Assembly: GCA_035699745.1 (NCBI GenBank)
Contig: DASSPH010000017.1
Coordinates: 1-64,000, forward strand
DNA from: Vicinamibacterales bacterium
GTDB taxonomy: Bacteria > Acidobacteriota > Vicinamibacteria > Vicinamibacterales > 2-12-FULL-66-21
Length of the DNA: 64,000 nt
Direction of reading: 5' to 3'
The notes beneath the pieces are model-generated. The model ran no database searches. It was not told where the DNA came from and worked only from the letters and a program-made list of their open reading frames with translations. This document shows positions 3,555 through 42,803 of this stretch, one piece after another. How positions within the stretch are numbered: the stretch's first letter is position 1; the number at the start of each line of letters is the position of its first letter. A program made the position numbers and the translations under genes.

Positions 3555-5285
3555 ATGACAGGGCCAACGAGCCGCGCGGGAGAGTCCGAGGGACGAAGCC
3601 CCTCGGCCGAGCACGCCGCACGGCGGCATCGGCTGTTGTGGCTGATCGCCGGCCGCGCGGCGGCGATCACGGCGCTCCTCGGCTCGGCGATCCTCGTCGA
3701 GTACCGCGGGCTGGGGGTGTTTCCCATCGACCCGTTCTTCGGGCTGCTCGGCCTCACCTACGCGCTGACGATCGTCTGGATCCTGACGCTGCGGTTCGTC
3801 GATCGCCACCCGTGGCTGATCGACGTGCAGCTGGCGTGCGACGCGCTGATCGCGTCGGCGATCGTGTATCTGACCGGCGGCGTGGGGAGCTACTTCTCGA
3901 CCCTCTACACGCTGCCGATCATCGCCGCGAGCATGGTGCAGTCGTGGCGCGGTGGGCTGACGGTCAGCGTGCTGAGCGCAGCGATCTACTCCGCGCTCGT
4001 CATCGCGCAATACCAGCACGTGCCGCTGCCGCTGGTGGTCCCGCCCGAGAGCCTGCCGGCGCCGCGGATGGCGTTCTACTCGGTGGGGCTGAACGTCTTC
4101 GGGTTCCTCGCCGTCGCCGCGCTGAGCGGCTACCTGGCGGAGGGCCTGCGGCGGACCGGGGCGCAACTCGCCGAGACGTCGACGCAGCTCGCGGATCTCC
4201 AGGCGTTCAACCAGCACGTCATCGACAGCCTGACCAGCGGCCTCGCGACCTGCGACGTGCAGGGACGGCTGCTGACCTTCAACCACGCGGCCGAGGCGAT
4301 TACCGGCGTTCCCGCGACTGATGCCGTCGGCGCCGACGTGCTGGCCGTGCTGCAGCTGCCGCCGCCGTTCCGCGCGCTGTTCGATCCCGGCCCGCGTCCG
4401 GTGCTGAAGCGCCGGGAGTACGGCTTCACCCGACCAGGCGGGCGGCCGATCGAGCTGGGCATCACCGTGGCGCCGCTGATCACGCCGCGCGGCGAGAGCG
4501 GGTTCCTGTTCACGTTCCTCGACGTGACCGAGCTGAAGCGCAAGGATCGCGAGGCCCGCGTGCAGCAGCGCCTCGCCGCCGTCGGCGAAATGGCCGCCGG
4601 CATCGCGCACGAGATCCGCAATCCGCTGGCGTCGATGGCCGGGTCGATCCAGATCCTGCGCGACGAGCTGCCGCTCACCAGCGAGCAGTCGCAGCTCATG
4701 GACATCGTGCTGCGCGAGTCGGACCGGCTGAACGAGACGATTCGCAACTTCCTGGCGTTCGCCAAGCCGCAGCGCTCGGCGGCGACCGACTTCGACGTCC
4801 GCCGCGTGGTCAGCGACGCGGCGCGGCTGCTCGAGAACAGCGCCGACGTCACCGCCGCCCACGCCATCGTCGTCGACGTGCCGCCGGATCCGGTGATCCT
4901 GCACGCCGACGAAGCGCAGATCCGGCAGATCGTGTGGAACCTCGCCACCAACGGGCTGCGCGCGATGCCCTCCGGGGGCCGGCTGCGGCTCGAGGTCCGG
5001 CGCGCGGCATCGGACGCCGCCGAGGGGGACGTGATCGTGGCGGTGCGCGACGACGGGGTGGGAATCGCGCCGGAAGACATGGACACCATCTTCCAGCCGT
5101 TCCGCGGCGGTTTCAGGGGAGGGACCGGGCTCGGACTCTCGATCGTCCACCGTATCGCGAGCGACTACGGCGGCGAAGTCCGCGTGGCCTCGGAGAAGGG
5201 GAAAGGCACCAGCGTGGAAGTGGCACTCCCGGTCGGCAGGCAGACCACACCGGAATGGGCGGCACCCGCCCGGGAGGAGGTCTGA
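3555..5285 (+). CDS. pilS: Sensor histidine kinase PilS (NtrB class)
   Basis: The 576-residue protein has an N-terminal hydrophobic region (about residues 28-200) with roughly six membrane segments, as in PilS. A PAS domain follows (about 215-325), then a HisKA domain with the phospho-acceptor histidine in GIAHEIRNPLA near residue 350, and an ATPase domain with the N box (NLATNGLRAM), G1 (DDGVGI) and G2 (GGTGLGLSI). It should autophosphorylate and control PilR, which starts two bases after its stop. In studied systems PilS senses pilin levels in the inner membrane. Its position directly before pilR and the pilA genes fits that role. Confidence 0.93.
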   Translation: MTGPTSRAGESEGRSPSAEHAARRHRLLWLIAGRAAAITALLGSAILVEYRGLGVFPIDPFFGLLGLTYALTIVWILTLRFVDRHPWLIDVQLACDALIASAIVYLTGGVGSYFSTLYTLPIIAASMVQSWRGGLTVSVLSAAIYSALVIAQYQHVPLPLVVPPESLPAPRMAFYSVGLNVFGFLAVAALSGYLAEGLRRTGAQLAETSTQLADLQAFNQHVIDSLTSGLATCDVQGRLLTFNHAAEAITGVPATDAVGADVLAVLQLPPPFRALFDPGPRPVLKRREYGFTRPGGRPIELGITVAPLITPRGESGFLFTFLDVTELKRKDREARVQQRLAAVGEMAAGIAHEIRNPLASMAGSIQILRDELPLTSEQSQLMDIVLRESDRLNETIRNFLAFAKPQRSAATDFDVRRVVSDAARLLENSADVTAAHAIVVDVPPDPVILHADEAQIRQIVWNLATNGLRAMPSGGRLRLEVRRAASDAAEGDVIVAVRDDGVGIAPEDMDTIFQPFRGGFRGGTGLGLSIVHRIASDYGGEVRVASEKGKGTSVEVALPVGRQTTPEWAAPAREEV

Positions 5286-5287
5286 TC

Positions 5288-6727
<1,440 letters not shown>

Positions 6728-6738
6728 GCCATCCGATA

Positions 6739-6796
6739 TGACAATAGCTGACAGTTTAGGGCACGGAATCCGCGCCACGAACTGTCAGGTCTGACA
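6739..6796. promoter_or_regulatory. Putative PilR enhancer: four TGTCA/TGACA boxes upstream of pilA1
   Basis: TGACA occurs at 6739-6743, 6749-6753 and 6792-6796, and its complement TGTCA at 6783-6787. Three of the four sit in the wider form CTGACA/CTGTCAG. They lie about 110-165 bases upstream of the sigma-54 core, a usual enhancer distance. Known PilR sites are short C/G-TGTC repeats, so the match is suggestive. That PilR binds here is inference. Confidence 0.55.
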
Positions 6797-6903
6797 AATA
6801 TTGGCAACATTTTCTGGCACCCCACCCGGCCGGCGCCCTCGCACCGTCGTCCTAATTGCAGCTGCTGCAACACTTAGGCGAATCCGGCGGGCACCGGCGG
6901 CCG

Positions 6904-6919
6904 CGGCACCTGCCTTGCT
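6904..6919 (+). promoter_or_regulatory. Sigma-54 promoter of pilA1
   Basis: The sequence CGGCACCTGCCTTGCT has GG and GC exactly ten bases apart and matches the -24/-12 consensus (TGGCACG-N4-TTGCW) closely. The predicted transcript start near 6930 leaves a leader of about 59 bases before pilA1. The site lies between the TGTCA boxes and the gene, as expected for a PilR-dependent promoter. Confidence 0.75.
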
Positions 6920-6988
6920 CAGTCCGGGACCGGCGCAACCAGCGTTGCGAGCTTCCGTTTCTCAAACTTTGGAGGAAGAGGGTTTCAC

Positions 6989-7504
6989 ATGCGCAATCAG
7001 AAGGGTTTCACGCTCATCGAGCTCCTGATCGTCGTCGCGATCATCGGCATCATCGCCGCGATCGCGGTCCCCGGCCTGCTCCGCGCCCGTATCTCGGGTA
7101 ACGAGGCCTCCGCCATTGGTTCGCTGCGCGCGGTCAGCAGCGCCCAGTCCACGTTCGCGGCCTCCTGCGCCAACGGCATGTATGCGCAGAGCCTGACCAC
7201 GCTGGGCAGCGGCCCCTCGGGCGGCTCGGCGTTCATCAGCCCGGACCTCGGCGCGAGCGCGACGGTGACCAAGAGCGGCTACTCGGTCTCGATGACCGGG
7301 ACCGCGGCGACCGGCACCACGGCGTGCAACGGCGCCACCGGCCTGGCCTCGGGCTACCACGCCTGGGCGGATCCGGTCTCGACGTCGACCGGCACGCGCT
7401 ACTTCTTCACCAACACGACGGGCACGATCTGGCAGGCGACCAGCTCGATCGGCTCGGGCGGCAGCGACACGGCCTCCCCCTCGGGCGGCACCGCGATCCA
7501 GTAG
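6989..7504 (+). CDS. pilA: Major type IV pilin PilA, copy 1
   Basis: The 171-residue prepilin has a six-residue charged leader ending in Gly (MRNQKG), then mature Phe and the fifth-residue Glu (FTLIE), followed by the long hydrophobic alpha-1 helix. PilD, encoded at 17702, should cut after Gly6 and methylate Phe. The globular domain is rich in Ser, Thr and Gly and has exactly two cysteines (C60 and C113), which could form one disulfide. GGAGGAAGAG upstream is a good ribosome binding site. It is nearly identical to pilA copy 2: only two residues differ in the mature part. Confidence 0.96.
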   Translation: MRNQKGFTLIELLIVVAIIGIIAAIAVPGLLRARISGNEASAIGSLRAVSSAQSTFAASCANGMYAQSLTTLGSGPSGGSAFISPDLGASATVTKSGYSVSMTGTAATGTTACNGATGLASGYHAWADPVSTSTGTRYFFTNTTGTIWQATSSIGSGGSDTASPSGGTAIQ

Positions 7505-7539
7505 TAACGGACCTCACCTCACTCTGAGGACGGAAGCAA

Positions 7540-7573
7540 GCCGGGTTCGCCGAGAGGCGGACCCGGCGTTTTC
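7540..7573 (+). terminator. Intrinsic terminator after pilA1
   Basis: GCCGGGTTCGCC and GGCGGACCCGGC pair across a GAGA loop (one G-T wobble), followed by a short T run (GTTTTCG). It lies 36 bases after the pilA1 stop and before the separate pilA2 promoter, so the two pilins are probably separate transcripts. Confidence 0.8.
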
Positions 7574-7626
7574 GTGTACCGGTCCGCGCCGGTCCTGCCG
7601 ACTGCGTCCCCCCGGACGACAATTGC

Positions 7627-7659
7627 TGTCATGACGCCGCTGGTTGTCACCTCCGACAA
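7627..7659. promoter_or_regulatory. Putative PilR enhancer boxes upstream of pilA2
   Basis: TGTCA occurs at 7627-7631 (inside TGTCATGAC) and 7645-7649, with a GACAA element just after. They lie about 75-100 bases upstream of the pilA2 sigma-54 core, repeating the arrangement at pilA1. Binding by PilR is inferred. Confidence 0.5.
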
Positions 7660-7724
7660 CCCTGTAAGACCGCTAAGTTCAAGCCGATACGTCTCTTAGC
7701 GAGCTTCGGTGCGAACGGCCGGGC

Positions 7725-7740
7725 TGGCATCGCCGTTGCT
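7725..7740 (+). promoter_or_regulatory. Sigma-54 promoter of pilA2
   Basis: TGGCATCGCCGTTGCT has GG and GC ten bases apart and an exact TTGCT -12 half. The predicted transcript start near 7751 leaves a leader of about 24 bases that contains the ribosome binding site AGGAGA at 7763-7768. Confidence 0.75.
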
Positions 7741-7774
7741 CATCCATGTGCATCCTCTTTTCAGGAGATGCAGA

Positions 7775-8296
7775 ATGAAAGTCCGGAATCAGAACGGGTT
7801 CACACTCATCGAGCTGCTGATCGTCGTCGCGATCATCGGCATCATTGCGGCGATCGCGGTCCCCGGTCTGCTCCGGGCCCGCATCTCCGGCAATGAGGCG
7901 TCGGCCATCGGATCGCTGCGCGCCGTGAGCAGCGCGCAGTCCACGTTCGCGGCGTCCTGCGCCAACGGCATGTATGCGCAGGACCTGACCACGCTCGGCA
8001 GCGGCCCCTCGGGCGGTTCGGCATTCATCAGCCCGGACCTCGGCGCGAGCGCGACGGTGACCAAGAGCGGCTACTCGGTCTCGATGACCGGGACCGCCGC
8101 GACCGGCTCCACGGCCTGCAACGGCGCCACCGGCCTGGCCTCGGGCTACCACGCCTGGGCTGATCCGGTCTCGACGTCGACCGGCACGCGCTACTTCTTC
8201 ACCAACACGACCGGCACGATCTGGCAGGCGACCAGCTCGATCGGCTCGGGCGGCAGCGACACGGCGTCCCCCTCGGGCGGCACGGCGATCCAGTAA
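7775..8296 (+). CDS. pilA: Major type IV pilin PilA, copy 2
   Basis: The 173-residue prepilin has the leader MKVRNQNG and mature start FTLIE. The mature protein differs from copy 1 only at the residues equivalent to S68 (Asp here) and T110 (Ser here). Both cysteines are kept. An upstream in-frame ATG at 7709 would add 22 residues, but the start at 7775 has the spaced AGGAGA and gives a normal leader. The near identity points to recent duplication or ongoing gene conversion. The separate promoter and terminator show that the copy can be expressed independently. Confidence 0.95.
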   Translation: MKVRNQNGFTLIELLIVVAIIGIIAAIAVPGLLRARISGNEASAIGSLRAVSSAQSTFAASCANGMYAQDLTTLGSGPSGGSAFISPDLGASATVTKSGYSVSMTGTAATGSTACNGATGLASGYHAWADPVSTSTGTRYFFTNTTGTIWQATSSIGSGGSDTASPSGGTAIQ

Positions 8297-8305
8297 CAGC
8301 TGGAG

Positions 8306-8364
8306 GATCGGGTGATCGGGTGATCGGGTGATCGGGTGATCGAGCGATCGATCACCCGATTTTC
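8306..8364 (+). terminator. GATCGGGT tandem repeat forming a probable terminator after pilA2
   Basis: Four exact 8-base GATCGGGT units (8306-8337) run into an inverted copy. ATCGGGTGATCG at 8331-8342 pairs with CGATCACCCGAT at 8349-8360, followed by TTTT. The array therefore supplies both arms of a terminator-like hairpin just after the pilA2 stop. Confidence 0.7.
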
Positions 8365-8398
8365 CGTTCATGCGATTCGATCGATCCGCCGATAATCC

Positions 8399-8450
8399 GA
8401 TCGCCCGATAACCCGATCGCCCGATCACCCGATCGCCCGATCACCCGATG
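8399..8450. repeat. Inverted-orientation 8-base repeat array running into the next start codon
   Basis: About six units of CGATCGCC / CGATCACC follow one another, with the last truncated unit CGATG containing the proposed ATG of the next gene. They are the complement of the GATCGGGT array 60 bases upstream, so the two arrays can pair. Confidence 0.85.
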
Positions 8451-10877
8451 TTCAAGTTCGCTCGCAGCCGCTGGCTGCTTCTCGCCGTCGCCGTGGCGAC
8501 CGTTCCGGTCGCCGGCATGTTCACGCTTTCGAAGATCTTTTTCGTCCGCGACCTGACGATGGCGTTCCGGTCGCGATTTCTGTTTCTGCGCGACAGCGTC
8601 CACTCGGGCACGTTTCCGCTCTGGGATCCGTATCCGGCGCACGGCCAGCCCGCCGCGAACGACGCGCTGTATCAGTTGTTCCACCTCCCGTCGCTGCCCA
8701 TCCGGCTGCTGCTGCCCGACGTCCTCGCCTACAACCTCTGGATCGCGCTCCCGATCCCGCTCGCCGCCGCCGGCATGTACCTGTTCCTGCGCCGCAGGCT
8801 GGGGCCGCAGGCCTCGGCGTTCGGCGCGGTCGCGTTCGCGGTGTCGGGACCGATCGTCTCGACGACGAATTTCCCCAACATGTCGTGGTCGGTCGTCGCC
8901 GCGCCGTACGTGTTCTGGGCGCTCGAGCGGCTGTTCGTCGAGCGGACCGCCAGGGCCATGACGGTGCTGGCGACAGCCATCGCGTGCCAGGCGCTGGCCG
9001 GGGAGCCGGTCTCGCTCGCCGCGACGCTGGCGATTGCCGCCGGCTATGTGCTGTTCCCGCAGGCGCGGTGGCGCGATCGCCGGCTCGCGATCGTCGCCGC
9101 GGCAGGCATGGCCGCCGGACTGCTCCTCGCCGCGATCCAGTACGTGCCGCTCGTCGCCGCCACCCGCGAGTCGATCCGCGGGACGATGGCGCCGAGCGAT
9201 TTCTGGGCGTTCCATCCGCTGGCGCTGCTCGAGCTGCTGGTGCCGCACTTCTTCGGCGACTACTTCAACTCGAACCTGCGCGAGCTGGTGTGGATGCTCG
9301 CCCTCAACAGCCAGCGGGATCCGTTCTACTACACGATGTACGTCGGCGTGCCGATCGTGCTGCTCGCCGGCGTGGCGATGCTCTCGGGACGTCCGGGGAC
9401 GCGGTTCTGGACGGTGGTGGTCGCCGCCTGCGCGATCGCGTCGCTCGGGCCGCATACGCCGCTCTATCCCGCGCTGCAGGAAATCGTGCCGCCGCTCAAG
9501 AGCTTCCGCTTCCCGGTGAAGTACCTGTCGCTGGCGGCGCTGGGAATCGCGACGCTCGCCGCGATGGCGTTCCAGTGGCTGCTCGATCGGCAGGTGCCGC
9601 CGCGCGCGCTGCGCCGCGTCCTGATCGTGACCGGGATCGCGGCGGCCCTCACCTATGGGCTGATCGCGTGGGTCCTGATCGCGCCGGAGTTGCCGATTCG
9701 CGGCTTCTTCCGCCTGGCGATCTGGGCGCACGTGCCGGCGCCGATTCAGGGAGCCGAGTTCCTGCTGTTCCGGGCGCGCCCGCTGCTCACCTCGCTGCTG
9801 TTGAAGATGCTGTGCGCGTCGTTCCTGCTCTGGCTCGCGGCTTCGGCGCGGCGCGAGCGGCGCACGGCGCTGGTCGTGTTCGCCGTCTTCGCGGGAATCG
9901 ATCTGCTCGCCTCGAACTCCAGCGTGAACCCGACCACCGATCCCACGCTGCTGGAGAATCCGGAATGGTCGCGCAGCATCCCGAAGGACCTGCACGAGCG
10001 CGTCTACGTCGGCGGCCGGCTCGAGGGCTACGTGAACACGACGGACGTGGACGCGCCGAAGTACGCTCGCTACCTCGACGAATACACCGAGCTCGAACAG
10101 CGGTATCTGATCGTCGGCCAGTTCATCTTTCATCCGTCCGGCCACCGCATCCGCGAGTCGATGTCATACGATCTGCCGGTGCTGTGGCCGACCGACTTCG
10201 CGCGGGCCGGAGGGTGGTTCAGGATCGCTCCGCGCGCGGATCGGCTGCGCTTCCTCTCGCGGGTGGGAACGCGCTTCGTGGTGCTGCCGACGCCTCCGTA
10301 TCCCGGGGCGCAGCCGCTGGCGCGCATGATCGGCGCGGAGCAGCTGCAGCTCTATGACTTCAACCCGAACGCGCGCCGGGCCTACGTCGTCCCCGACGCG
10401 CTCATGGGCCCCGACGTGAACTGGCAGATCCAGGGGCTGTTCATGGAGCGCTTCGATCCGGCGCGCGGTGTGCTCGTCAGCGAACCGCCGCCTCCGCCGG
10501 CCGGCGTGCCGGGCCGTCCGGTTCCCGCCTCGGCCACTTTTCTCGAAGACGGTCTTCAGCGGGTGGTGATCAAGGCGGGAACGCCGGGGGACGGCTACCT
10601 GGCGTTGTCGGACACGTACAACACGGACTGGCGCGTCGAGGTCGACGGGCGTCCTGCGCCGATGATGCGCGTCAACGGGCTCTTCCGCGGCGTGCACCTC
10701 ACCCCGGGCGAGCACGTCGTCACGTTCACCTACCGGCCGCGGAAGTTCTATCTCGGCGCGGCGGTCAGCGCGCTCGCGGCGCTCGGCCTGGCGCTGGCCT
10801 GCGCGATCGAGCCGCGGCTCCGGCGCCGGCGCGCGTCAGCGCACCTGCAGCCAGACGCGGCTCCGGCGGCGCCCTGA
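8448..10877 (+). CDS. YfhO-like GT-C fold membrane protein, copy 1
   Basis: The 809-residue polytopic inner membrane protein has about a dozen hydrophobic segments and a C-terminal soluble domain. The early loop FFVRDL carries the acidic residue expected in the first extracytoplasmic loop of GT-C glycosyltransferases. The overall pattern (WDPY..., a long membrane part, then a beta-rich tail ending in TFTYRP) fits the YfhO family, whose studied members add GlcNAc to cell-surface polymers. Here a role in modifying the Ser/Thr-rich pilins is plausible from context only. The start codon lies in a repeat array with no clear ribosome binding site, so initiation may be further in. The next gene is a paralogue. 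Confidence 0.78.
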   Translation: MFKFARSRWLLLAVAVATVPVAGMFTLSKIFFVRDLTMAFRSRFLFLRDSVHSGTFPLWDPYPAHGQPAANDALYQLFHLPSLPIRLLLPDVLAYNLWIALPIPLAAAGMYLFLRRRLGPQASAFGAVAFAVSGPIVSTTNFPNMSWSVVAAPYVFWALERLFVERTARAMTVLATAIACQALAGEPVSLAATLAIAAGYVLFPQARWRDRRLAIVAAAGMAAGLLLAAIQYVPLVAATRESIRGTMAPSDFWAFHPLALLELLVPHFFGDYFNSNLRELVWMLALNSQRDPFYYTMYVGVPIVLLAGVAMLSGRPGTRFWTVVVAACAIASLGPHTPLYPALQEIVPPLKSFRFPVKYLSLAALGIATLAAMAFQWLLDRQVPPRALRRVLIVTGIAAALTYGLIAWVLIAPELPIRGFFRLAIWAHVPAPIQGAEFLLFRARPLLTSLLLKMLCASFLLWLAASARRERRTALVVFAVFAGIDLLASNSSVNPTTDPTLLENPEWSRSIPKDLHERVYVGGRLEGYVNTTDVDAPKYARYLDEYTELEQRYLIVGQFIFHPSGHRIRESMSYDLPVLWPTDFARAGGWFRIAPRADRLRFLSRVGTRFVVLPTPPYPGAQPLARMIGAEQLQLYDFNPNARRAYVVPDALMGPDVNWQIQGLFMERFDPARGVLVSEPPPPPAGVPGRPVPASATFLEDGLQRVVIKAGTPGDGYLALSDTYNTDWRVEVDGRPAPMMRVNGLFRGVHLTPGEHVVTFTYRPRKFYLGAAVSALAALGLALACAIEPRLRRRRASAHLQPDAAPAAP

Positions 10878-10882
10878 CGCGC

Positions 10883-13882
10883 ATGGATGCGCGAACCGGC
10901 GGCCGCCGCTGGATTCCGCTCGTCGTCGCGCTGTCGCTGCTGCCCGTGCTCGGGCTCTTCACGACCCACCGCATCTTCTTCGTCCGCGACCTGTCGTTCT
11001 TCTTCTGGTCGCGGCACCTGTGGCTGCGCCACACGCTCGCCTCGGGGGAGGCGCCCTGGTGGGATCCGTACGTCGCGGCGGGGCAGTCCGCCATCGCGGA
11101 CGCGCTGAATCAGCTGCTGATGCCGATCACGCTGGCGATCCGGCTGCTTCCTTCCGACGTGATCTCGTTCAACCTGTGGGTGGCGCTGCCGCTGCCGGTC
11201 GCGGCGGTGGGCACGTTCCTGTTCCTGCGCTGCCGCGACCTGCCGCCGGCGGCCGCGGCGCTCGGCGCCGCGGTCTTCGCACTGTCGGGACCGTCGGTCT
11301 CGATGCTCAACGCGCCGAACCTGTCTTGGTCGGTGGCGCTGCTGCCCTGGGTGCTGTGGAGTCTGACGCGCGGCGTCGGCGCGACCGCCATCGCGTACGC
11401 CCTGCAGGCGCTGTGCGGCGAGCCGGTGACGTGGGTGACGACGGGGTTGGTGGGGGGACTGTGGATCTTCCGCCTGAAGGCGGAAGCCGCCCACGGTTCT
11501 TTCCGCGCGCTCGCCGGGCTCGTCGCCGGCGCGCTGCTGGCATCGGCGCAGCTCGTCCCGACCGTGCTGGCGGGATTGCGCGCGCAGCGCGGCGCGCTCG
11601 CGACGCCCGATTTCTGGTCCGTACATCCCATCGCCTTGTGGGACGCCGTCGCGCCGAACGTGTTCGGCAACTACTACGACGCGTTCCTCGCCGACCTGCC
11701 GTGGATGGCCGCGCTCAACTTCGGCCGCGATCCGTTCTTCTACTCGCTGTACGTCGGACCGATCGTGCTCCTGCTCGCGGTCATCGGCACCGCGTCCCGG
11801 CTGCGAAGAAACGCGTTCTGGGCTGCCGTCGCGCTCGTCGGCATCGTCGCGGCGCTGGGCGGGTACACGCCGCTGTATCCGTTGGCGCGGAAGCTGATTC
11901 CTCAGTTGATGTACTTCCGCTTTCCGGTCAAGTACCTGGTGTTCGCGGTGTTCGCGGTTGCGGTGCTCGTTGCGGAAGGATGGACCGCTCTCGCGTCGCG
12001 CCGGCACGACTCCGGTGCGGTTCGCACCGTGCCGCGCGCGGCCGCGCTGCTCGGCGCGGTCGGACTCGCCGCCGCGGCGCTGTCGTTCTTCACGCCGGAC
12101 CTGGTCTGGCAGGCGGCGCACTGGCTCGCGTCGGCGGCGCATCTGAAGGACCCGCCGGCGGGCGCGGCATTCCTCGCGCGGACCGCCCCGCCGCTCGCCG
12201 TTCGCGCATTCGCGCTGCTGCTCGCCGGCGCCGTCCTCGCGATCGCCGCCGAACGGCGGCCGCAGGCCTTCGCCGTGCTGTTCGTCGCCGTCTGCGCCGA
12301 TCTGGCGGTGACCAACGGCGACATCAATCTCACCATGGACGCGAAGCGCCTGGCGCCGCCGGACTGGTATCTCGCCGCCGCCGGGCCGCAGCGCGTCTAC
12401 ATCGGCGGCCGGATGCGCGGCTTCATGAACGCCGCCGATCCGGACGGCGTGAAGGAATGGCAGATCCCCGCCGAGGCCACCGCCGTGGAGGGGCGCATGC
12501 TGCTGAACGCGCAACTGCCGATGGCGCCCTCGGGCTGGCGCGTCCGCGAAGCGCTGTCCTACGACTTGCCATACCTCTGGCCGGCGGAGTACGAAGCGAC
12601 GCTGCGGCGCTTCGAGGAAGCGGAGCGCGACGCGCGGGCGGCGTTTCTGCGGCGGAGCGGCGTGCGCAAATGCGTGCTTCCGGAGGACGAGCCGCGCCAG
12701 TACTCTCCCGTCGCCGCGGTCCCGGACTGGAACATGATCGTCTTCCAGTGCGATCCCGGGGCCCGGCGCGCGTTTCTGCCTCCCACGGTGGAGGTCGCGA
12801 ACGATCCGGACGACCTCGCGTGGCAGCGGGAGGCGTTGTTCGATCCGGCGCTGTGGGACGATGTCGCCAGGGTGGACCGCATGCCGGCGGTCGCCGGGCG
12901 GCCCGGGCCGCCGGAGCCGCCGTCGGTCCGCATCGTCCACGACGGCGCCAGCACGGTCGTGCTCGAGGCCACGCTGAACCGGCAGGGGCTCGTGGTGCTG
13001 CGTGACACCTACGATCCCTCCTGGCGCGCCGAGGTGGACGGGCAGCCGGCGGAGATCGCGCGCGTGAACGGACGGTACCGCGGCGTGTCGCTGCCGCCGG
13101 GACGCCACGTGATACGGTTGGTCTACCGGCCGCGCGACTTCACAACAGGTCTAATCCTTTCAATGATTGCAGCAACCGGGCTCGGGCTCGGACTCGGGTT
13201 CTTCGGGTTCCTCGGGTTCTTCGGGTTCTCCAGGTTCCTCGGGTCGAACCCGAAGAACCTGAACCCGGAGAACCTGAACCCGGAGAACCTGAGGAACCTG
13301 AAGAACCCGAAGAACCCGAACAACCCGAACAACCCGAACAACCCGAACACCCCGTCCCCCCCGGTGGACCGCGGCTTTACGCTGATGGAACTGATGATCG
13401 TGCTGGCGGTGATCGGGATCCTCCTGACGATCGCGTTCGTTCAGTATCGCGGCATGCAGGCGCGCGGGAACGATGCCTCGGCGGTCGCGTCGCTCCGCGC
13501 GATCGCGGCGGCGCAGTGGCAGTTCGCGCTCACCTGCGGGAACATGAAATACGCGACGGTGCTGCCGGATCTGGCCAAACCGGTGCCCGCGACGGGCGAG
13601 GGGTTCCTCAGCCCGGACCTCACGACCGCGGACACGTTCGAGAAGTCCGGCTACATGTTCACGATGACAGGCAAGCCGCTGGACGACGCGCCGGCCGCGT
13701 GCAACGGGGCTCCCGTGGCCGCCGGGTACGCGGCCACCGCCGACCCGGTGCGGCCCGGGGTGACCGGCAACTACTTCTACGGCGTGAATGCCGACCGCAT
13801 CCTGTTCGTCGACGAGCAGGAGACCTACACCGGGAACCTGGGGGAATCCGGGGCGGCGGGGCACGGCGGAGAGGTGCGGTAA
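10883..13882 (+). CDS. YfhO-like GT-C membrane protein fused to a type IV pilin domain
   Basis: The single open frame encodes 999 residues. Residues 1 to about 770 match the preceding YfhO-like paralogue segment by segment (FFVRDL loop, LSGPSVS, MYFRFPVKY, final YRPRDF). The last membrane segment is followed by a repetitive Asn/Pro-rich stretch (about 790-825) encoded by a 9-base repeat array. From residue 828 there is a complete pilin domain: DRG, then FTLME and a hydrophobic helix, then a globular part resembling PilA (FLSPDL, SGYMFTMTG), with two cysteines at the positions seen in PilA. GTG at 13364 could serve as an independent pilin start (leader MDRG), but I see no ribosome binding site. 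Either this is a genuine fusion, or a repeat expansion removed the stop between two genes. Confidence 0.8.
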   Translation: MDARTGGRRWIPLVVALSLLPVLGLFTTHRIFFVRDLSFFFWSRHLWLRHTLASGEAPWWDPYVAAGQSAIADALNQLLMPITLAIRLLPSDVISFNLWVALPLPVAAVGTFLFLRCRDLPPAAAALGAAVFALSGPSVSMLNAPNLSWSVALLPWVLWSLTRGVGATAIAYALQALCGEPVTWVTTGLVGGLWIFRLKAEAAHGSFRALAGLVAGALLASAQLVPTVLAGLRAQRGALATPDFWSVHPIALWDAVAPNVFGNYYDAFLADLPWMAALNFGRDPFFYSLYVGPIVLLLAVIGTASRLRRNAFWAAVALVGIVAALGGYTPLYPLARKLIPQLMYFRFPVKYLVFAVFAVAVLVAEGWTALASRRHDSGAVRTVPRAAALLGAVGLAAAALSFFTPDLVWQAAHWLASAAHLKDPPAGAAFLARTAPPLAVRAFALLLAGAVLAIAAERRPQAFAVLFVAVCADLAVTNGDINLTMDAKRLAPPDWYLAAAGPQRVYIGGRMRGFMNAADPDGVKEWQIPAEATAVEGRMLLNAQLPMAPSGWRVREALSYDLPYLWPAEYEATLRRFEEAERDARAAFLRRSGVRKCVLPEDEPRQYSPVAAVPDWNMIVFQCDPGARRAFLPPTVEVANDPDDLAWQREALFDPALWDDVARVDRMPAVAGRPGPPEPPSVRIVHDGASTVVLEATLNRQGLVVLRDTYDPSWRAEVDGQPAEIARVNGRYRGVSLPPGRHVIRLVYRPRDFTTGLILSMIAATGLGLGLGFFGFLGFFGFSRFLGSNPKNLNPENLNPENLRNLKNPKNPNNPNNPNNPNTPSPPVDRGFTLMELMIVLAVIGILLTIAFVQYRGMQARGNDASAVASLRAIAAAQWQFALTCGNMKYATVLPDLAKPVPATGEGFLSPDLTTADTFEKSGYMFTMTGKPLDDAPAACNGAPVAAGYAATADPVRPGVTGNYFYGVNADRILFVDEQETYTGNLGESGAAGHGGEVR
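13180..13353. repeat. 9-base repeat array inside the fusion gene, with inverted halves
   Basis: The first half repeats CGGGTTCTT / CGGGTTCCT. The second half repeats the complementary words (AACCCGAAG, AACCTGAAC, AACCCGAAC). Because the unit is nine bases, the array stays in frame and contains no stop. It encodes Gly/Phe-rich and then Asn/Pro-rich residues between the YfhO-like part and the pilin part. Confidence 0.85.
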
Positions 13883-13897
13883 AATACGAGGGTTCTC

Positions 13898-15118
13898 ATG
13901 ACATCCCTGTCCCGGAAGCTGCTGGTTCTGTGTGCGCTGCTCGGCCTCGGGGCGTCGAGTGCGGCCACCTACGTCCACTACAACCTGATTCGCAACCCTG
14001 ACTACTCCAGCTTCTGCGACATCAACGCGACGGTGTCGTGCAAGGCTGCCTATCTGAGCCAGTACGGCTCGGTGATGGGGGTGCCGGTCGCGGTCGGCGG
14101 CATCGTTTTCTTCGGGTGGGTGCTGTTGATGCTGTGGGGGGCGGCGGGGAAGAGCCGCATCAAGGACAGCGCGCCCGCATACATCTTCGCGGGATCGACG
14201 CTCGCCCTCGCCATCGTCCTGTATCTCGCCTACGCGTCGTTCTTCGTGCTGAAGGAAGTCTGCCCGCTGTGCGTCGCCACCTACGTCGCGGTGATCGGGA
14301 TCTTCATCGTTTCCGGAGGAGCCAGTTCCGTGCCGATGTCCTCGCTGCCCAAGCGCGCCCTTGCCGACATGCGCGTCCTGATTGCCACGCCGCTGGCGCT
14401 GGTGATCGCGCTCCTGTTCGTCGCCGGCACGGCTCTCGGCCTGACGACGTTCCCGCGTGAAGCCGCCTCGGGCGGAGGTGCGGTCGCGTCGGTCGCCGCG
14501 GCGGCCGCCGCGCCGGCGGCGCCGCTCACCGCACAGCAGCAGGAGGAGCTCCAGCGCTGGTGGGCGATGCAGCCGGTCTCGCCGGACTTCCCCTACCCGA
14601 ACGAGGGGGCGAAGGTCCTCATCGTGGAGTTCGCCGACTTCCAGTGCCCGCATTGCCGCCAGATGTATCTGGCCTACAAGCCGATCCTCGACAAGTTCCA
14701 GGCGCAGTATCCCAAAGACGTGAAGTTCGTCTTCAAGACGTGGCCGATCAGCTCCAAGTGCAATCCGACGGTGCCGGGGATCAATTTCGTGGCGACGTGC
14801 GAAGCGTCGGCGGCGTATCAGATGGCGAAGAAGAACGGCACCGACGATCGGATGAAGGACTGGTTCTTCGTCAACCAGGAACAGATCAGCGTCGCCACCG
14901 TGAAGCGCATCGCCGGCGAGATGGCCGGCGTGAAAGACTTCGAAGCGGAGTATCAGAAGGTGATCGGCCAGGTCCGATCCGACGCGGAGGCCGGCTCGAA
15001 GCTCGGCGTCAACTCGACCCCGTCGTTCTTCGTCAACGCCAGGCGCATTCCCGGCGGCGGGATGCCGCCGCAGTATTTCGAGGCCCTGCTCGATCTGGAG
15101 TTGAAGAAGGCGAAGTAG
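13898..15118 (+). CDS. VKOR-DsbA fusion: disulfide-forming oxidoreductase
   Basis: The 406-residue protein makes and recycles disulfides in the periplasm. Residues 1 to about 155 are a vitamin K epoxide reductase-like membrane domain: a loop cysteine pair (FCDINATVSC, about residues 41-48) and the membrane CPLC near residue 122. After a short Ala-rich linker, residues 215-406 are a thioredoxin/DsbA-like domain with CPHC near residue 249 and a cis-proline region NSTPSFFV. Such fusions replace the DsbA/DsbB pair. It starts 15 bases after the fusion gene. Each pilin here has two cysteines, so pilins are obvious candidate substrates, though that is inference. Confidence 0.92.
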   Translation: MTSLSRKLLVLCALLGLGASSAATYVHYNLIRNPDYSSFCDINATVSCKAAYLSQYGSVMGVPVAVGGIVFFGWVLLMLWGAAGKSRIKDSAPAYIFAGSTLALAIVLYLAYASFFVLKEVCPLCVATYVAVIGIFIVSGGASSVPMSSLPKRALADMRVLIATPLALVIALLFVAGTALGLTTFPREAASGGGAVASVAAAAAAPAAPLTAQQQEELQRWWAMQPVSPDFPYPNEGAKVLIVEFADFQCPHCRQMYLAYKPILDKFQAQYPKDVKFVFKTWPISSKCNPTVPGINFVATCEASAAYQMAKKNGTDDRMKDWFFVNQEQISVATVKRIAGEMAGVKDFEAEYQKVIGQVRSDAEAGSKLGVNSTPSFFVNARRIPGGGMPPQYFEALLDLELKKAK

Positions 15119-16075
15119 TTGACGTCCGCCATCCGCATCCGCGAGCTGAGCAAGGACTTCTACGTCGGCTTCTGGCGCCCCCGCCCGTATCGGGCGCTGG
15201 ATCGGCTCTCCCTCGACGTCGCGCCGGGCGATGTCTTCGGCTTCCTGGGCCCCAACGGCGCGGGCAAGACCACCACACTCAAGCTGCTCATGCAGCTCGT
15301 CTTCCCGACGAGCGGCGACGCCGAGATCCTCGGGCGGCCGCTGGGCGACGTCGCGGTGCGCCGGCGGATCGGATACCTGCCGGAGAATCCCTTCTTCTAC
15401 GACCATCTGACCGCGGAGGAACTGCTCGACTACTACGGCCGGCTGTTCGGCATGCCTGCCGCGGATCGGCGGCGGAAGATCGCGGCGACGCTCGATCGGC
15501 TCGGCATCGGCGCCGAGCGCCGGCTGCCGCTGCGCAAGTACTCGAAAGGGATGCTGCAGCGGACCGGGCTCGCGCAGGCGGTGCTCAACGATCCGGACGT
15601 GCTGTTCCTCGATGAGCCGATGTCGGGGCTCGATCCGCTCGGCCGCCGCGACGTGCGCGCGCTGATGCTCGAGCTGCGCGATCAGGGCCGGACGATCTTC
15701 TTCAGCTCGCACATCCTCTCGGACGCTGAAGCGCTGTGCAGCCAGGTGGGGATCGTCGCCAAGGGACGGCTCGCCGCCGCGGGGCCGCTCAACGAGCTGC
15801 GCGAGTTCGCGGTCCACGGATGGGAGCTGGTCATGGCCGGCGTTCCCGCCAGCGCGCTCGACCGCCTGCGCGCGCGCGCGCAGCGCCTCCACGCGATCGC
15901 CGGCGATCGCTACGTCATCGAACTCCCGCCGGACGGGCGGCCCGAAGAACTGCTGCGCGAGCTCACCGGCGCGGGGGCCGCGCTGGTCTCGCTGAACCCG
16001 CTGCGCGAAACGCTCGAGGACGTGTTCGTCCGCCGCGTCGCCGAGATCGGCGACGGCGCGAGGGCGCAGTCGTGA
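15119..16075 (+). CDS. ABC-2 type transporter ATP-binding protein
   Basis: The 318-residue ATPase has Walker A GPNGAGKTT near residue 43, the Q-loop region LPENPFF, the signature SKGMLQ (a variant of LSGGQ) and Walker B VLFLDEPMSGLDP. The TTG start follows the upstream stop codon without a gap, and no alternative ATG gives a full domain, so translation is probably coupled. The next gene encodes the permease with a GTGA overlap. The substrate is unknown. Position within the pilus island suggests an envelope function. Confidence 0.9.
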   Translation: MTSAIRIRELSKDFYVGFWRPRPYRALDRLSLDVAPGDVFGFLGPNGAGKTTTLKLLMQLVFPTSGDAEILGRPLGDVAVRRRIGYLPENPFFYDHLTAEELLDYYGRLFGMPAADRRRKIAATLDRLGIGAERRLPLRKYSKGMLQRTGLAQAVLNDPDVLFLDEPMSGLDPLGRRDVRALMLELRDQGRTIFFSSHILSDAEALCSQVGIVAKGRLAAAGPLNELREFAVHGWELVMAGVPASALDRLRARAQRLHAIAGDRYVIELPPDGRPEELLRELTGAGAALVSLNPLRETLEDVFVRRVAEIGDGARAQS

Positions 16076-16878: not shown

Positions 16879-17705
16879 AGCCGGCGATCGGCGCGGTGGT
16901 GTGTCTCACCGGCGCCGTTTCCCTGCACGCCGTGCAGGATCGCTGGCCGGCGCCCGCGGTCGACCGCCCCGAGCTCCTCTACGTCCGCTCGCCGGCGGCC
17001 ATGAAGCGCGCGCTGCTCGGGTACGACGCGTTCGCCGCCGACGTCTATTGGATCCGCGCGCTGCAGCACTTCGGCAGCGAACGCCTCTCGCCGCCCGGGC
17101 ACGTCCGCACCTACTCGCTGCTGTATCCGCTGCTCGACCTGACGACGACGCTGGATCCGTATTTCAGCATCGCCTACAGGTTCGGCGCGATCTTCCTCGG
17201 CGAGCCGTATCCCGGCGGGCCGGGGCGGCCGGACCTCGCGATCGCGCTGCTGAAGAAGGGCATCGCGGCGCAGCCCGGGAAATGGCAGTACCTGCAGGAC
17301 CTCGGGTTCGTCTACTACTGGCACCTGCGCGATCACAAGACCGCGGCGGCGACGTTTCAGCAGGCCTCCGGGATGCCGGGCGCGCCCAACTGGCTGCAGC
17401 CGCTCGCCGCCGTCACGCTCGCCGAAGGCGGGCAGCGTGACGCCTCGCGCGCGTTGTGGCAGCAGCTCGCGAAGGCCGACGAGCCGTGGCTGCGCGACTC
17501 CGCGCACCTGCGCCTGACACAGCTCGACGCGATGGAGATCATGGACGCCTGGTCGCGGGTCCGCCGCGAGCGCGGCATCACCCCGCCGATGCCGCTCGAC
17601 CCCACCGGCACCCCCTTCGTGATCGATCCCGCGACCGGGGGGATCACCATCGCGCGGGAGTCGAAGCTGTTCCCGCTTCCCGGTCAGCTGCAGCCGCCGC
17701 GATGA
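16875..17705 (+). CDS. TPR-like protein linked to the ABC transporter
   Basis: The 276-residue protein begins with a short hydrophobic segment (signal or anchor). Helical repeats in its middle part resemble tetratricopeptide repeats (pairs around GKWQYLQDLGFVYYWHLRDH and PLAAVTLAEGGQRDASRAL). I do not recognise a named family. The GTG start overlaps the permease stop (GTGA), and its own stop overlaps the prepilin peptidase start, so it is part of the same translationally coupled operon. It may be a periplasmic or membrane-bound partner of the transporter; that is inference from context. Confidence 0.75.
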   Translation: MKPAIGAVVCLTGAVSLHAVQDRWPAPAVDRPELLYVRSPAAMKRALLGYDAFAADVYWIRALQHFGSERLSPPGHVRTYSLLYPLLDLTTTLDPYFSIAYRFGAIFLGEPYPGGPGRPDLAIALLKKGIAAQPGKWQYLQDLGFVYYWHLRDHKTAAATFQQASGMPGAPNWLQPLAAVTLAEGGQRDASRALWQQLAKADEPWLRDSAHLRLTQLDAMEIMDAWSRVRRERGITPPMPLDPTGTPFVIDPATGGITIARESKLFPLPGQLQPPR

Positions 17706-18481
17706 TGCCGCCCTCCGGGACCGTCGAGATCGTCCTCGCGCTCGCGGGACTCTGCATCGGCAGCTTCCTCAACGTCTGCATCCACCGCCTGCCGCTGAAG
17801 CAGTCGGTCGTGCATCCCGGCTCGCGCTGCCCGGACTGCGGCTACGCGCTGCGCTGGTACGACAACGTGCCGGTGCTCAGCTACGCCATGCTGCGCGGCC
17901 GCTGCCGATCCTGCTCGCGCCCGATCTCGCTGCAGTATCCGCTCATCGAGGTCGCGACCGCCGCCATCTTCGTCGCGCACTGGTACGCGTTCGGCCCGAC
18001 GGCGATGCTGCCGGTGCGGCTGGTGTTCGCGTGCGCGCTGATCGTGCTGTTCATGATCGATCTCGAGCATCAGATCCTGCCCGACGTCATCACGCTGCCG
18101 GGGATCGTCGCCGGCGTGATCGGCAGCCTCTTCCTGCCGCCGGGCCCCATGATGTCGGTGCTCGGCGTGGTCGCGGGCGGCGGACTGCTCTGGGCGATCG
18201 CCGAGGCCTGGTACCGGCTGCGCAAGGTCGACGCCATGGGGTTCGGGGACGTCAAGATGCTCGCCATGGTCGGCGCCTGGCTCGGCGTGAAGATGGTGCT
18301 GGTCACGTTCGTGCTGTCGTCGATGCTCGGCGGCCTGGTCGGCGCGCTGCTGATCGGTTCGCGCCGCGCCGACATGGCCACCAGAGTGCCGTTCGGGACG
18401 ATGCTCGCGGTCGGCGCGCTGGTCGCGAGCATGTACGGGGAAGCGCTGCTGTCGTGGTATCTCACCACGCTGGGGGGCTGA
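17702..18481 (+). CDS. pilD: Prepilin peptidase / N-methyltransferase PilD
   Basis: The 259-residue membrane aspartyl protease cleaves prepilin leaders after Gly and methylates the new N-terminus. The N-terminal domain has GSFLNVCIHRLP and a zinc-type cysteine set (CPDC near residue 43 and CRSC about 30 residues later). The two catalytic aspartates are in MIDLEHQ (near residue 120) and GFGDVKM (near residue 183). ATG at 17702 overlaps the previous stop. Substrates in this window include both PilAs, the pilin domain of the fusion protein and the minor pilins at 19893 and 20303. Confidence 0.95.
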   Translation: MMPPSGTVEIVLALAGLCIGSFLNVCIHRLPLKQSVVHPGSRCPDCGYALRWYDNVPVLSYAMLRGRCRSCSRPISLQYPLIEVATAAIFVAHWYAFGPTAMLPVRLVFACALIVLFMIDLEHQILPDVITLPGIVAGVIGSLFLPPGPMMSVLGVVAGGGLLWAIAEAWYRLRKVDAMGFGDVKMLAMVGAWLGVKMVLVTFVLSSMLGGLVGALLIGSRRADMATRVPFGTMLAVGALVASMYGEALLSWYLTTLGG

Positions 18482-29325: not shown

Positions 29326-30336
29326 CTACAGGCGTCCGAGCAGATCCGCCGCCGCGTCCGGCCAGCGCGACATCGTGCGCTTCACCGCCGCATGACGGCG
29401 GGTGAGTCCCTCGCGCTGCATGATGGCGCGGAACGCGGCGGCGACGTGCTCGCGCCACCAGGTGTCGCTGCTGCGCGACGACGCGTCGTAGGCGGCGGCG
29501 AGCGGCTCGAGGCAGCTCGCGTCGCCGATTTCCTCGAGCGCCGCCAGGAACGTCACCGGCAGGCGGTCCGCGCCGAGCAGGCTGTCGCGCAGATCGTAGA
29601 GCGCCAGCCGGCTGTTGCGGGACGCCAGCGCCTGATGCACCGCCCCGCGCACCGCGCGCCATTCCTCCCGCCGCACCCGATCCGCTTCCCGCTGCTCGTG
29701 CGCGCGCAGGTGATCGACCAGCCGCTGAAGGTCGGTCAGCTTTGCCGTGGAGCGTACGGCGGCCAGGGCCGCCTTGAGCGCCCCCGGCGACGCCGGCAGC
29801 CGGCCGGCCACCGCATCGCGCCACGTCGCGTCGTCGCGGCCGGGCGTCCCCGCGACGTGCGCGCTGACGTCCGCGTCGGGGTCGGTCGCGAGCAGATCGC
29901 GCACCGGCGAGCGGACGTCGCCGGGGAGATCGCGGAGCGCCTCGTACGCCGCGATGCGCACGATCGCGGCGCGGCGGCGATCGAGGGCGACGGCCACGAT
30001 CGCGTCGAGCGCGTCGCGCGCGGCATCGGGCTGCTCGGCGCCGAGAAACGCGCGGATGGCGGAGATCGCCGCGATCTGGATGGCGGCGGAGTTGTCCTCG
30101 AGCGCGGCGCGGGCCGGCGCGAGCGCGCGCGGATCGCCGGCCGCCTCGAACGCGCGGAGCATCCCGGCGCGCGTCCGTCCCGTCGCCCCGGGGAATTCCT
30201 GCAGCAGGTGTTCGACCGCCCGCTCCCCGATGACCGCCAGCCGCGCGACCGCCGCTTCACGCCCGACCTCGTCCTCGCCGCCAAGCGCCGAGATCAACTG
30301 GCGGATCTCGGCGTTGGCGGACGGGCGGATAGGCAT
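29326..30336 (-). CDS. HEAT-repeat protein of unknown function
   Basis: The 336-residue protein has no signal peptide or membrane segment. The first 150 or so residues form successive helix pairs with HEAT-like spacing (RAGMLRAFEAAGDPRAL, then AIQIAAISAIRAFLG, then RIAAYEALRDLPGD), suggesting a curved protein-binding scaffold. The C-terminal half is also alpha-helical. It lies downstream of the OmpA-family gene on the same strand, separated by a hairpin-forming repeat, so it may be expressed separately. No partner can be named. Confidence 0.75.
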   Translation of the reverse strand: MPIRPSANAEIRQLISALGGEDEVGREAAVARLAVIGERAVEHLLQEFPGATGRTRAGMLRAFEAAGDPRALAPARAALEDNSAAIQIAAISAIRAFLGAEQPDAARDALDAIVAVALDRRRAAIVRIAAYEALRDLPGDVRSPVRDLLATDPDADVSAHVAGTPGRDDATWRDAVAGRLPASPGALKAALAAVRSTAKLTDLQRLVDHLRAHEQREADRVRREEWRAVRGAVHQALASRNSRLALYDLRDSLLGADRLPVTFLAALEEIGDASCLEPLAAAYDASSRSSDTWWREHVAAAFRAIMQREGLTRRHAAVKRTMSRWPDAAADLLGRL

Positions 30337-30337
30337 T

Positions 30338-30431
30338 GGAATTTGGAAATTTGGAGATTTGGGAATTTGGAAATCTCCAAGTTACCCGATTTCACATTTC
30401 CAAATTTCCAGATTTCCAGATTTCCAAATTT
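30338..30431. repeat. 8-base ATTTGGAA/ATTTCCAG repeats forming an inverted pair
   Basis: The left half repeats words such as ATTTGGAA and ATTTGGAG. The right half repeats ATTTCCAA and ATTTCCAG. The halves are complementary and can form a long A/T-rich hairpin directly after the stop of the OmpA-family gene. This is a notably A/T-rich island in the window. Confidence 0.85.
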
Positions 30432-32154: not shown

Positions 32155-32229
32155 AATCCGACACCTCATCTGTAGCCATGGTAGAGGTTCGCCCGATCTG
32201 TGTCAAAACAAACACAACCCCCGACACAG

Positions 32230-32289
32230 CCGGAAGCCGGTAGCCGGCAGCCGGTAGCCGGTAGCTGGAAGCTGGAAGCTGGAAGCTGG
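32230..32289. repeat. 7-base repeat (AGCCGGT then AGCTGGA) downstream of tatC
   Basis: About four units of AGCCGGT/AGCCGGC are followed by about four units of AGCTGGA, ending just before the tatC stop. The change of word partway through the array mirrors the composite array after pilB. Confidence 0.85.
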
Positions 32290-42720: not shown

Positions 42721-42803
42721 CCAGTTGCCAGTGACCAGTTGCCAGTAACCAGTTGCCAGTAACCAGTTACCAGTAACCAGTTGCCAGTAACCCGTTGCCG
42801 GTT
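42721..42803. repeat. 7-base tandem repeat (CCAGTTG/CCAGTAA) between the two M14 genes
   Basis: About twelve head-to-tail units of CCAGTNR begin directly at the end of the first gene's stop codon: CCAGTTG, CCAGTGA, CCAGTTG, CCAGTAA and so on, decaying to CCCGTTG and CCGGTTG. The strict 7-base period is clear. Confidence 0.92.

Follow-up and report, generated by a model that had tools for sequence, protein, structure and literature searches.

Type IV prepilins are usually regarded as small proteins with a short leader. In Streptococcus sanguinis, such leaders comprise 8-18 residues, according to the accessible part of the source (PMC6497953). Pilins of Pseudomonas aeruginosa are acted on by TfpW, a glycosyltransferase of the GT-C type (accessible parts of PMC11841053 and PMC5836110), and in the pilin-accessory cassette of the same organism the glycosyltransferase gene follows the pilin gene (PMC11841053, accessible part). 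The YfhO family (PF09586) includes Bacillus subtilis YfhO, proposed to be a GT-C type transferase in the part of PMC5836110 at hand, and, distantly, PgfM1 and PgfM2 of Streptococcus mutans; Pgf modifies surface adhesins (PMC11983588, accessible part). In the DNA analysed here, the initial 64 kb (hereafter the window) of contig 17 from a 6.3 Mb genome of 110 contigs assigned to the order Vicinamibacterales (Acidobacteriota), a YfhO-like protein and a complete type IV prepilin are encoded in a single open reading frame (ORF). No member of the YfhO family is described as joined to a pilin in the parts of these sources available. The ORF and its first half are located as follows.

10883..13882, + strand: fused ORF encoding a YfhO/GT-C-like protein, a linker and a type IV prepilin; 999 residues from ATG to TAA, aligned with three relatives
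10883..13192, + strand: YfhO-like GT-C half, approximately residues 1-770, with a predicted periplasmic β-domain and last transmembrane (TM) helix (Pfam, AlphaFold2, Foldseek and VIA-align)

The preliminary description of this DNA, made from the sequence alone, had claimed that one frame unites a YfhO-like protein with a complete pilin, and the ORF, which spans exactly these coordinates, carries both Pfam domains above their cut-offs. YfhO was matched at residues 699-760 (29.6 bits, cut-off 28.5), by the C-terminal part of the profile only, and N_methyl at residues 829-852 (30.8 bits, cut-off 21.2). The length of the open frame was rejected as evidence by itself (loci L138, L139, L141 and L142), since elsewhere in these GC-rich genomes pilins sit in long, spuriously extended frames. 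That the fusion goes beyond chance follows from homology along the YfhO part, by which the upstream frame is truly coding, and from recurrence in three further metagenome-assembled genomes (MAGs). The YfhO-pilin fusion is real, natural and conserved in the assembled sequences. The preliminary description also knew of no protein of such design, and no YfhO-pilin or glycosyltransferase-pilin fusion was found described in the literature searched, whose reach largely excluded subscription journals. The layout appears to be undescribed; both halves belong to known families and the joining is the new point.

A search of 100 whole genomes, that of the window (G000) included, revealed YfhO and pilin in one frame in G002, G004 and G010 as well. 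These genomes belong to the same family as the window, a lineage of soil acidobacteria, and to two other genera, with identities of 56-58% for YfhO and 62-66% for the pilin. A profile of the four fusions, run against 162 genomes of the order, recovered the full-length fusion in 4 and any match at E ≤ 1e-45 in 18, the four included. The family comprises 12 genomes, own included, of which 4 are fused; a contig end truncates the locus of G007, and no match at the cut-offs used came from G005 or G006. Every YfhO found before this pilin within the family (4 cases) is fused to it. The observation named beforehand as refuting, that relatives always keep the pilin as a separate gene, is not what the family displays. 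When the two best candidates of each of 396 genomes sampled from the phylum were scored, only the window's own genome showed a match that covers both halves. Two further pilins (G062 and G028) had been considered partial fusions, as the profile match seemed to extend back into YfhO, but no YfhO was detected there by tblastn at E ≤ 1e-3; both are ordinary pilins located directly after PilR.

The segments joining the two halves differ among the four fused genomes. From the RPR motif to the glycine at position -1 of the pilin (Gly-1), last helix included, they extend over 79, 56, 42 and 49 residues, all open and in frame, and past the last helix they share little similarity, differing in both length and sequence. 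The chance of four linkers being open and in frame without selection was roughly estimated at ~0.002, on the assumption that the linker sequences are unrelated and that their length changed three times independently. Midpoint-rooted trees were built from a selection of 25 pilins and one of 15 YfhO rows; in each, the fused sequences group together with a support of 100/100. The branching order is the same in both, with G002 diverging before the window's own sequence and then G004 with G010, the fork between own and G004 plus G010 being moderately supported (82/58 and 85/86). Not included were, among others, many further pilins, the pilin that lies at a contig end in G007, the partial YfhO sequences of G067 and G129 and the second of the two YfhO proteins of G057. 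The trees fit a single fusion event inherited by both halves. At the junction itself, the window contains a repeat array.

13194..13354, + strand: 9-bp array in two inverted arms, translated as the end of the last helix plus the linker; among the four fused genomes only the window's own has it

One of the two origins considered in the preliminary description, a spacer repeat that lost its stop and so fused two genes, finds no support in these data. The array was rejected as the cause of the fusion, since the three relatives are fused without it. Their linkers are unrelated and array-free, and both trees unite the fused rows in one group; the array has therefore most likely expanded afterwards, within a linker already in place.

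The pilin half carries a predicted prepilin peptidase site, and a PilD gene lies in the same locus.

13373..13378, + strand: predicted PilD cleavage site between Gly831 and Phe832 (DRG/FTLMEL)
13376..13879, + strand: mature pilin domain of 168 residues; AlphaFold2 predicted local distance difference test (pLDDT) 89 when modelled alone
17696..18481, + strand: PilD prepilin peptidase (A24), 4 kb downstream of the fused ORF (Pfam A24_N_bact and Peptidase_A24)

Gly-1 (Gly831), Phe1 (Phe832) and Glu5 (Glu836) are invariant in 9/9 pilins, as are Cys885 and Cys940, which are predicted to form the C-terminal disulfide; these and the motif counts below refer to the 9 pilins and 13 YfhO rows of one alignment. 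The intact cleavage region and the two pilin cysteines noted at the outset are thereby located to the residue. The model of the pilin comprises a long N-terminal α1-helix and a β headgroup, and type IV pilins head the Foldseek and VIA lists, the best matches being FimA (Foldseek, 6.8e-4) and PilA4 (VIA, Z 9.8, root mean square deviation (rmsd) 2.5, 119 aligned residues), respectively. In Gly-1, Phe1, Glu5, the long α1-helix and the two cysteines, the domain resembles type IV prepilins. This contrasts with the position of its class III signal, which in prepilins is N-terminal with a short leader and here lies inside the chain, preceded by 830 residues that include many TM helices. No N-terminal signal with a short leader is present, 831 residues preceding Phe832 in the open frame, within which an internal start may occur.

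The YfhO half was compared with known glycosyltransferases by sequence and by model, together with its unfused paralogue.

10985..10993, + strand: codons of R35-D36-L37 in the first loop after TM helix 1; motif invariant in 13/13 YfhO rows
8448..10877, + strand: unfused YfhO paralogue, 42% identical

Asp36 of the RDL motif, a conserved acidic residue in the predicted first extracytoplasmic loop, is a candidate for the GT-C catalytic aspartate. The AlphaFold2 model of the whole fusion (pLDDT 71; predicted template modelling score 0.74) is mostly confident through YfhO to residue ~780, with pLDDT mostly below 50 in the linker (780-833) and below 50 in the pilin part. For the YfhO half, all 5 Foldseek matches at E ≤ 0.001 are AftD or ArnT entries, which are GT-C enzymes, and the top VIA-align matches are STT3/OST (Z 17.6, rmsd 4.5, 424 aligned residues), PglB (16.0), AglB, AftD (15.2) and Pmt proteins. 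In its model, the YfhO half adopts the fold of a GT-C glycosyltransferase, with oligosaccharyltransferases and AftD as the nearest structural matches. The fold is shared with PglB, STT3, AglB and AftD at Z values of ~14-17.6, whereas identity in those rows is ~9-16% and these enzymes have no counterpart to the C-terminal pilin. A sequence search of the PDB with the profile returned just two matches, at E 0.8-0.9. Membership of the YfhO family is indicated by the Pfam match above cut-off. NCBIfam PgfM2 matched the fusion (E 5.7e-4) and the paralogue (1.8e-7) weakly, and at 18.1 bits against an equivalog cut-off of 1500 this denotes distant kinship only. To our knowledge, lipoteichoic acid, the known target of the YfhO family, is not expected in this group of bacteria, so that the acceptor of the YfhO half must be another.

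The TfpO/TfpW cassette of P. aeruginosa is arranged in a comparable way. There too a glycosyltransferase gene adjoins a pilin in one operon (for the window, this refers to gene order only), and a terminator or hairpin lies between pilin and enzyme, as far as the accessible part of the source goes (PMC11841053). In contrast to the cassette, where the genes are separate, enzyme and pilin share one frame here; the likeness is one of arrangement.

Of the two alternatives raised in the preliminary description, a functional fusion from which PilD releases the pilin, at a predicted cleavage site, is the better supported. We consider it probable, though by no means assured, that a pilin glycosyltransferase and a minor pilin are translated as one chain and that PilD then releases the pilin, with cleavage, in vivo topology, glycosyl transfer and acceptor as proposed here. 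The first ~770 residues, as modelled, would form a YfhO-family GT-C-like enzyme whose active loop faces the periplasm and whose C-terminus is cytoplasmic. The predicted periplasmic β-domain, followed by the last TM helix, would place the disordered linker on the cytoplasmic side, on which prepilin leaders are cleaved; under the positive-inside rule, the Arg-rich linkers of the relatives fit such a placement. Translation would yield a single chain in which the linker presents the Gly-1/Phe1 site at the cytoplasmic face, and the PilD of the same locus would cut between Gly831 and Phe832, so that the minor pilin is freed in mature form and the enzyme retains a cytoplasmic tail. By analogy with TfpW/TfpO in P. 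aeruginosa, the enzyme would most likely add a lipid-linked sugar to pilins of the locus, the fused pilin or the two major pilins being candidate acceptors. Through the fusion, enzyme and minor pilin would be made in a 1:1 ratio and at the same site.

A broader proposal, which we put forward tentatively and with some doubt, is that of a natural polyprotein, in which the glycosyltransferase would carry its own pilin substrate, or a priming minor pilin, as C-terminal cargo and the prepilin peptidase would act as a polyprotein-processing protease. If true, prepilin peptidases would accept more than has been thought, with PilD cleaving behind a polytopic membrane protein of 831 residues. The type IV pilus would also be physically linked to a GT-C enzyme, which would suggest a substrate outside Gram-positives for the YfhO family, itself poorly understood, and would provide a testable case of pilin glycosylation in Acidobacteria.

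Several observations weigh against the favoured reading of a pilin glycosyltransferase and a minor pilin made as one chain. The orthologous pilin is unfused, with no YfhO in the fetched locus, in 5 of the 12 family genomes, where it has a near ATG in G001, G003, G009 and G011, and a long leader with an uncertain start in G008. The sample of fused sequences is small (only 4, at least 3 from MAGs), and a polytopic "leader" of 830 residues is far beyond the S. sanguinis range as given in the accessible part of PMC6497953. A GT-C fold by itself does not reveal the substrate, and proximity of YfhO to pilins is not general, a pilin motif being present in 10 of the 29 YfhO loci scanned, mostly with 1.5 kb flanks and some of them overlapping; in G057, which encodes two YfhO proteins, no pilus genes were observed within 18 kb. 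In favour of that reading, the forward arm of the junction array has stop units in register in 0/12 cases, compared with 57/220 units, and 22/29 arms holding one, in the other arrays (14 regions, counting arms with 4 units or more, the search pattern favouring AAN units). Since the other 7/29 arms are also free of in-register stops, the open state of the window's arm is suggestive only. The remaining adverse points concern the 3' end of the YfhO part and the candidate starts beyond it.

13085..13153, + strand: synonymous-site conservation among the four fused genes, with rare codons ATA, AGA and GGT CTA
13139..13167, + strand: sigma-70-like match TTCACA-17-AATGAT; one found, 0.2 expected
13163..13165, + strand: candidate internal start, an ATG in frame within the final TM helix of YfhO
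13364..13366, + strand: in-frame GTG, candidate start giving the 4-residue leader MDRG; no Shine-Dalgarno

In a rarity-weighted test restricted to columns with an identical residue in all four proteins, and excluding Met, Trp and gaps, 0/3000 permutations scored as high as the stretch at 13085-13153, and its rare codons are absent from the 5 unfused copies compared. The result rests on this second statistic, because a plain count of identical synonymous codons in the same alignment was not significant (p 0.13). The stretch may serve as an RNA element or pause site, or as a promoter or start inside the gene, and its conservation hints that the pilin may come from more than the fusion. A nested gene would accommodate this, an internal promoter, a start codon or both inside the last YfhO helix giving a shorter helix-linker-pilin product beside or instead of the fusion, so that pilin exceeds enzyme; we regard it as unlikely, yet deserving of serious attention. 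An in-frame ATG follows soon after a conserved GGTCTWAY in 4/4 fused genes and the sigma-70-like match lies in the same region of the window, but these ATG codons do not share one aligned place in all four, the window holds GGTCTWAY twice with 0.8 expected, so that the motif is not rare, and no sigma-70-like match was found in the corresponding stretch of G004. Similarly, covariation for an RNA hairpin in the conserved stretch was not significant (122/500 shuffles), and positions 6700-14100 gave no Rfam match at gathering thresholds. Closer to the cleavage site, the GTG of the window would give its 4-residue leader, and in-frame ATG and GTG codons in G002 would give ordinary leaders of 15 and 5 residues, whereas the nearest in-frame ATG, GTG or TTG lies 38 codons before Gly-1 in G004 and 29 in G010, inside or just past the YfhO helix. 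Among the candidate starts, the best Shine-Dalgarno score is -5.5, short of the 5% level of random positions (-7.0), in a comparison that leaves out three misplaced reference positions (two in L043, one in L048). This proves little, since four unfused orthologous pilins likewise score weakly (-1.5 to -3.8), and a missing Shine-Dalgarno was rejected as proof of fusion-only translation. In any case the frame remains open throughout, and an internal signal would supply extra pilin without undoing the fusion.

The fusion might also remain uncut, the attached pilin domain anchoring or priming the pilus or recruiting substrate, in which case the disordered linker could serve as a tether and retention across three genera would be accounted for. 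Set against this, Gly-1, Phe1 and Glu5 are invariant, PilD lies downstream in the window and in 2 of the 3 other fused loci (the third fetched stretch ends before its position), and a pilin so attached could hardly be extracted into a filament; we judge it very improbable. That a repeat array or an assembly error merely took out a stop, leaving a functionless fusion, is scarcely credible: arrays of this 9-mer are common in the genome and some of their arms are open, as described above, but three MAGs from other samples are fused without an array, the fused sequences group at 100/100 in both trees, and open in-frame linkers in all four would be rare by chance on the rough estimate already given.

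The junction array is predicted to fold as one long hairpin (-113.3 kcal/mol, z -8.9). Arm 1 encodes GLGFFGF-like residues, which lengthen the last helix, and arm 2 an NPKNLNPENL-like linker. The preliminary description had taken the array to be of the same kind as the spacers elsewhere in the window; this holds for the layout, whereas the exact unit does not recur in the window, where other arrays are mostly of 7- or 8-mers, and recurs only elsewhere in the genome. Arrays of 7-8 bp lie at 905-1012, 30336-30431, 32228-32289 and 42713-42799. The 9-mer AACCCGNAG occurs in arrays dispersed over 14 other regions of G000 (L112-L125), on contigs C10, C29, C46, C49, C50, C55, C61, C64, C69, C70 (two), C71, C99 and C104, with a variable triplet that is often TAG and with both orientations in 10/14. 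Matches to the family pattern number 88 in the genome, own array counted, and these arrays form a genome-wide family. Arrays enter the discarded part of a pilin elsewhere too: in G008 (L046:5277-5375), three 33-bp repeats lie in the presumed leader of the unfused pilin orthologue and reach the cleavage site. In G010 (L045:3996-4197), an in-frame tandem repeat of ~18-bp units is inserted in a loop of the YfhO part.

The genes surrounding the fused ORF and its paralogue are those of a type IV pilus operon.

3555..5285, + strand: PilS-like sensor kinase (Pfam 6TM_PilS)
5288..6727, + strand: PilR-like sigma-54 response regulator; start codon assumed, conserved in synteny
6989..7504, + strand: major pilin 1
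7775..8296, + strand: major pilin 2, near-identical copy
8306..8449, unstranded: inverted 8-bp arrays between pilin 2 and the first YfhO; long hairpin, -100 kcal/mol, z -8.5
13898..15118, + strand: VKOR-DsbA fusion for disulfide formation (Pfam)
15119..16075, + strand: ABC transporter ATPase of the conserved operon

The order PilR, major pilin(s), YfhO where present, pilin, VKOR-DsbA, ABC and PilD is kept in unfused relatives. In another family of the order, YfhO lies between pilins of the same operon in G033 and G074. In G074, YfhO has its own stop and a separate pilin starts ~150 bases later. In G033 (L047:1975-11690), YfhO is followed by PMT_2 and GT4 genes, then by methyltransferase and GT2 genes on the other strand, and then by the next pilin; the genes between these type IV pilins are likely a pilin-glycosylation gene set. 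The stretch from YfhO to VKOR-DsbA in G022 yielded no pilin, and in G360, which belongs to another class, YfhO comes after a PilR-like gene and before pilins. A YfhO protein in VFZL01000010.1 (L060), titled Acidimicrobiia, matches that of G057, which belongs to the window's order in Acidobacteria; the title is probably wrong. Where the window has the arrays at 8306-8449, several relatives display, by eye, terminator-like hairpins after the major pilin. A sigma-54-like site, TGGCATCGCCGTTGCT, is located at 7725-7740, ~35 bases before the ATG of pilin 2; of 10 loci scanned, the window among them, 9 have a counterpart upstream of a pilin.

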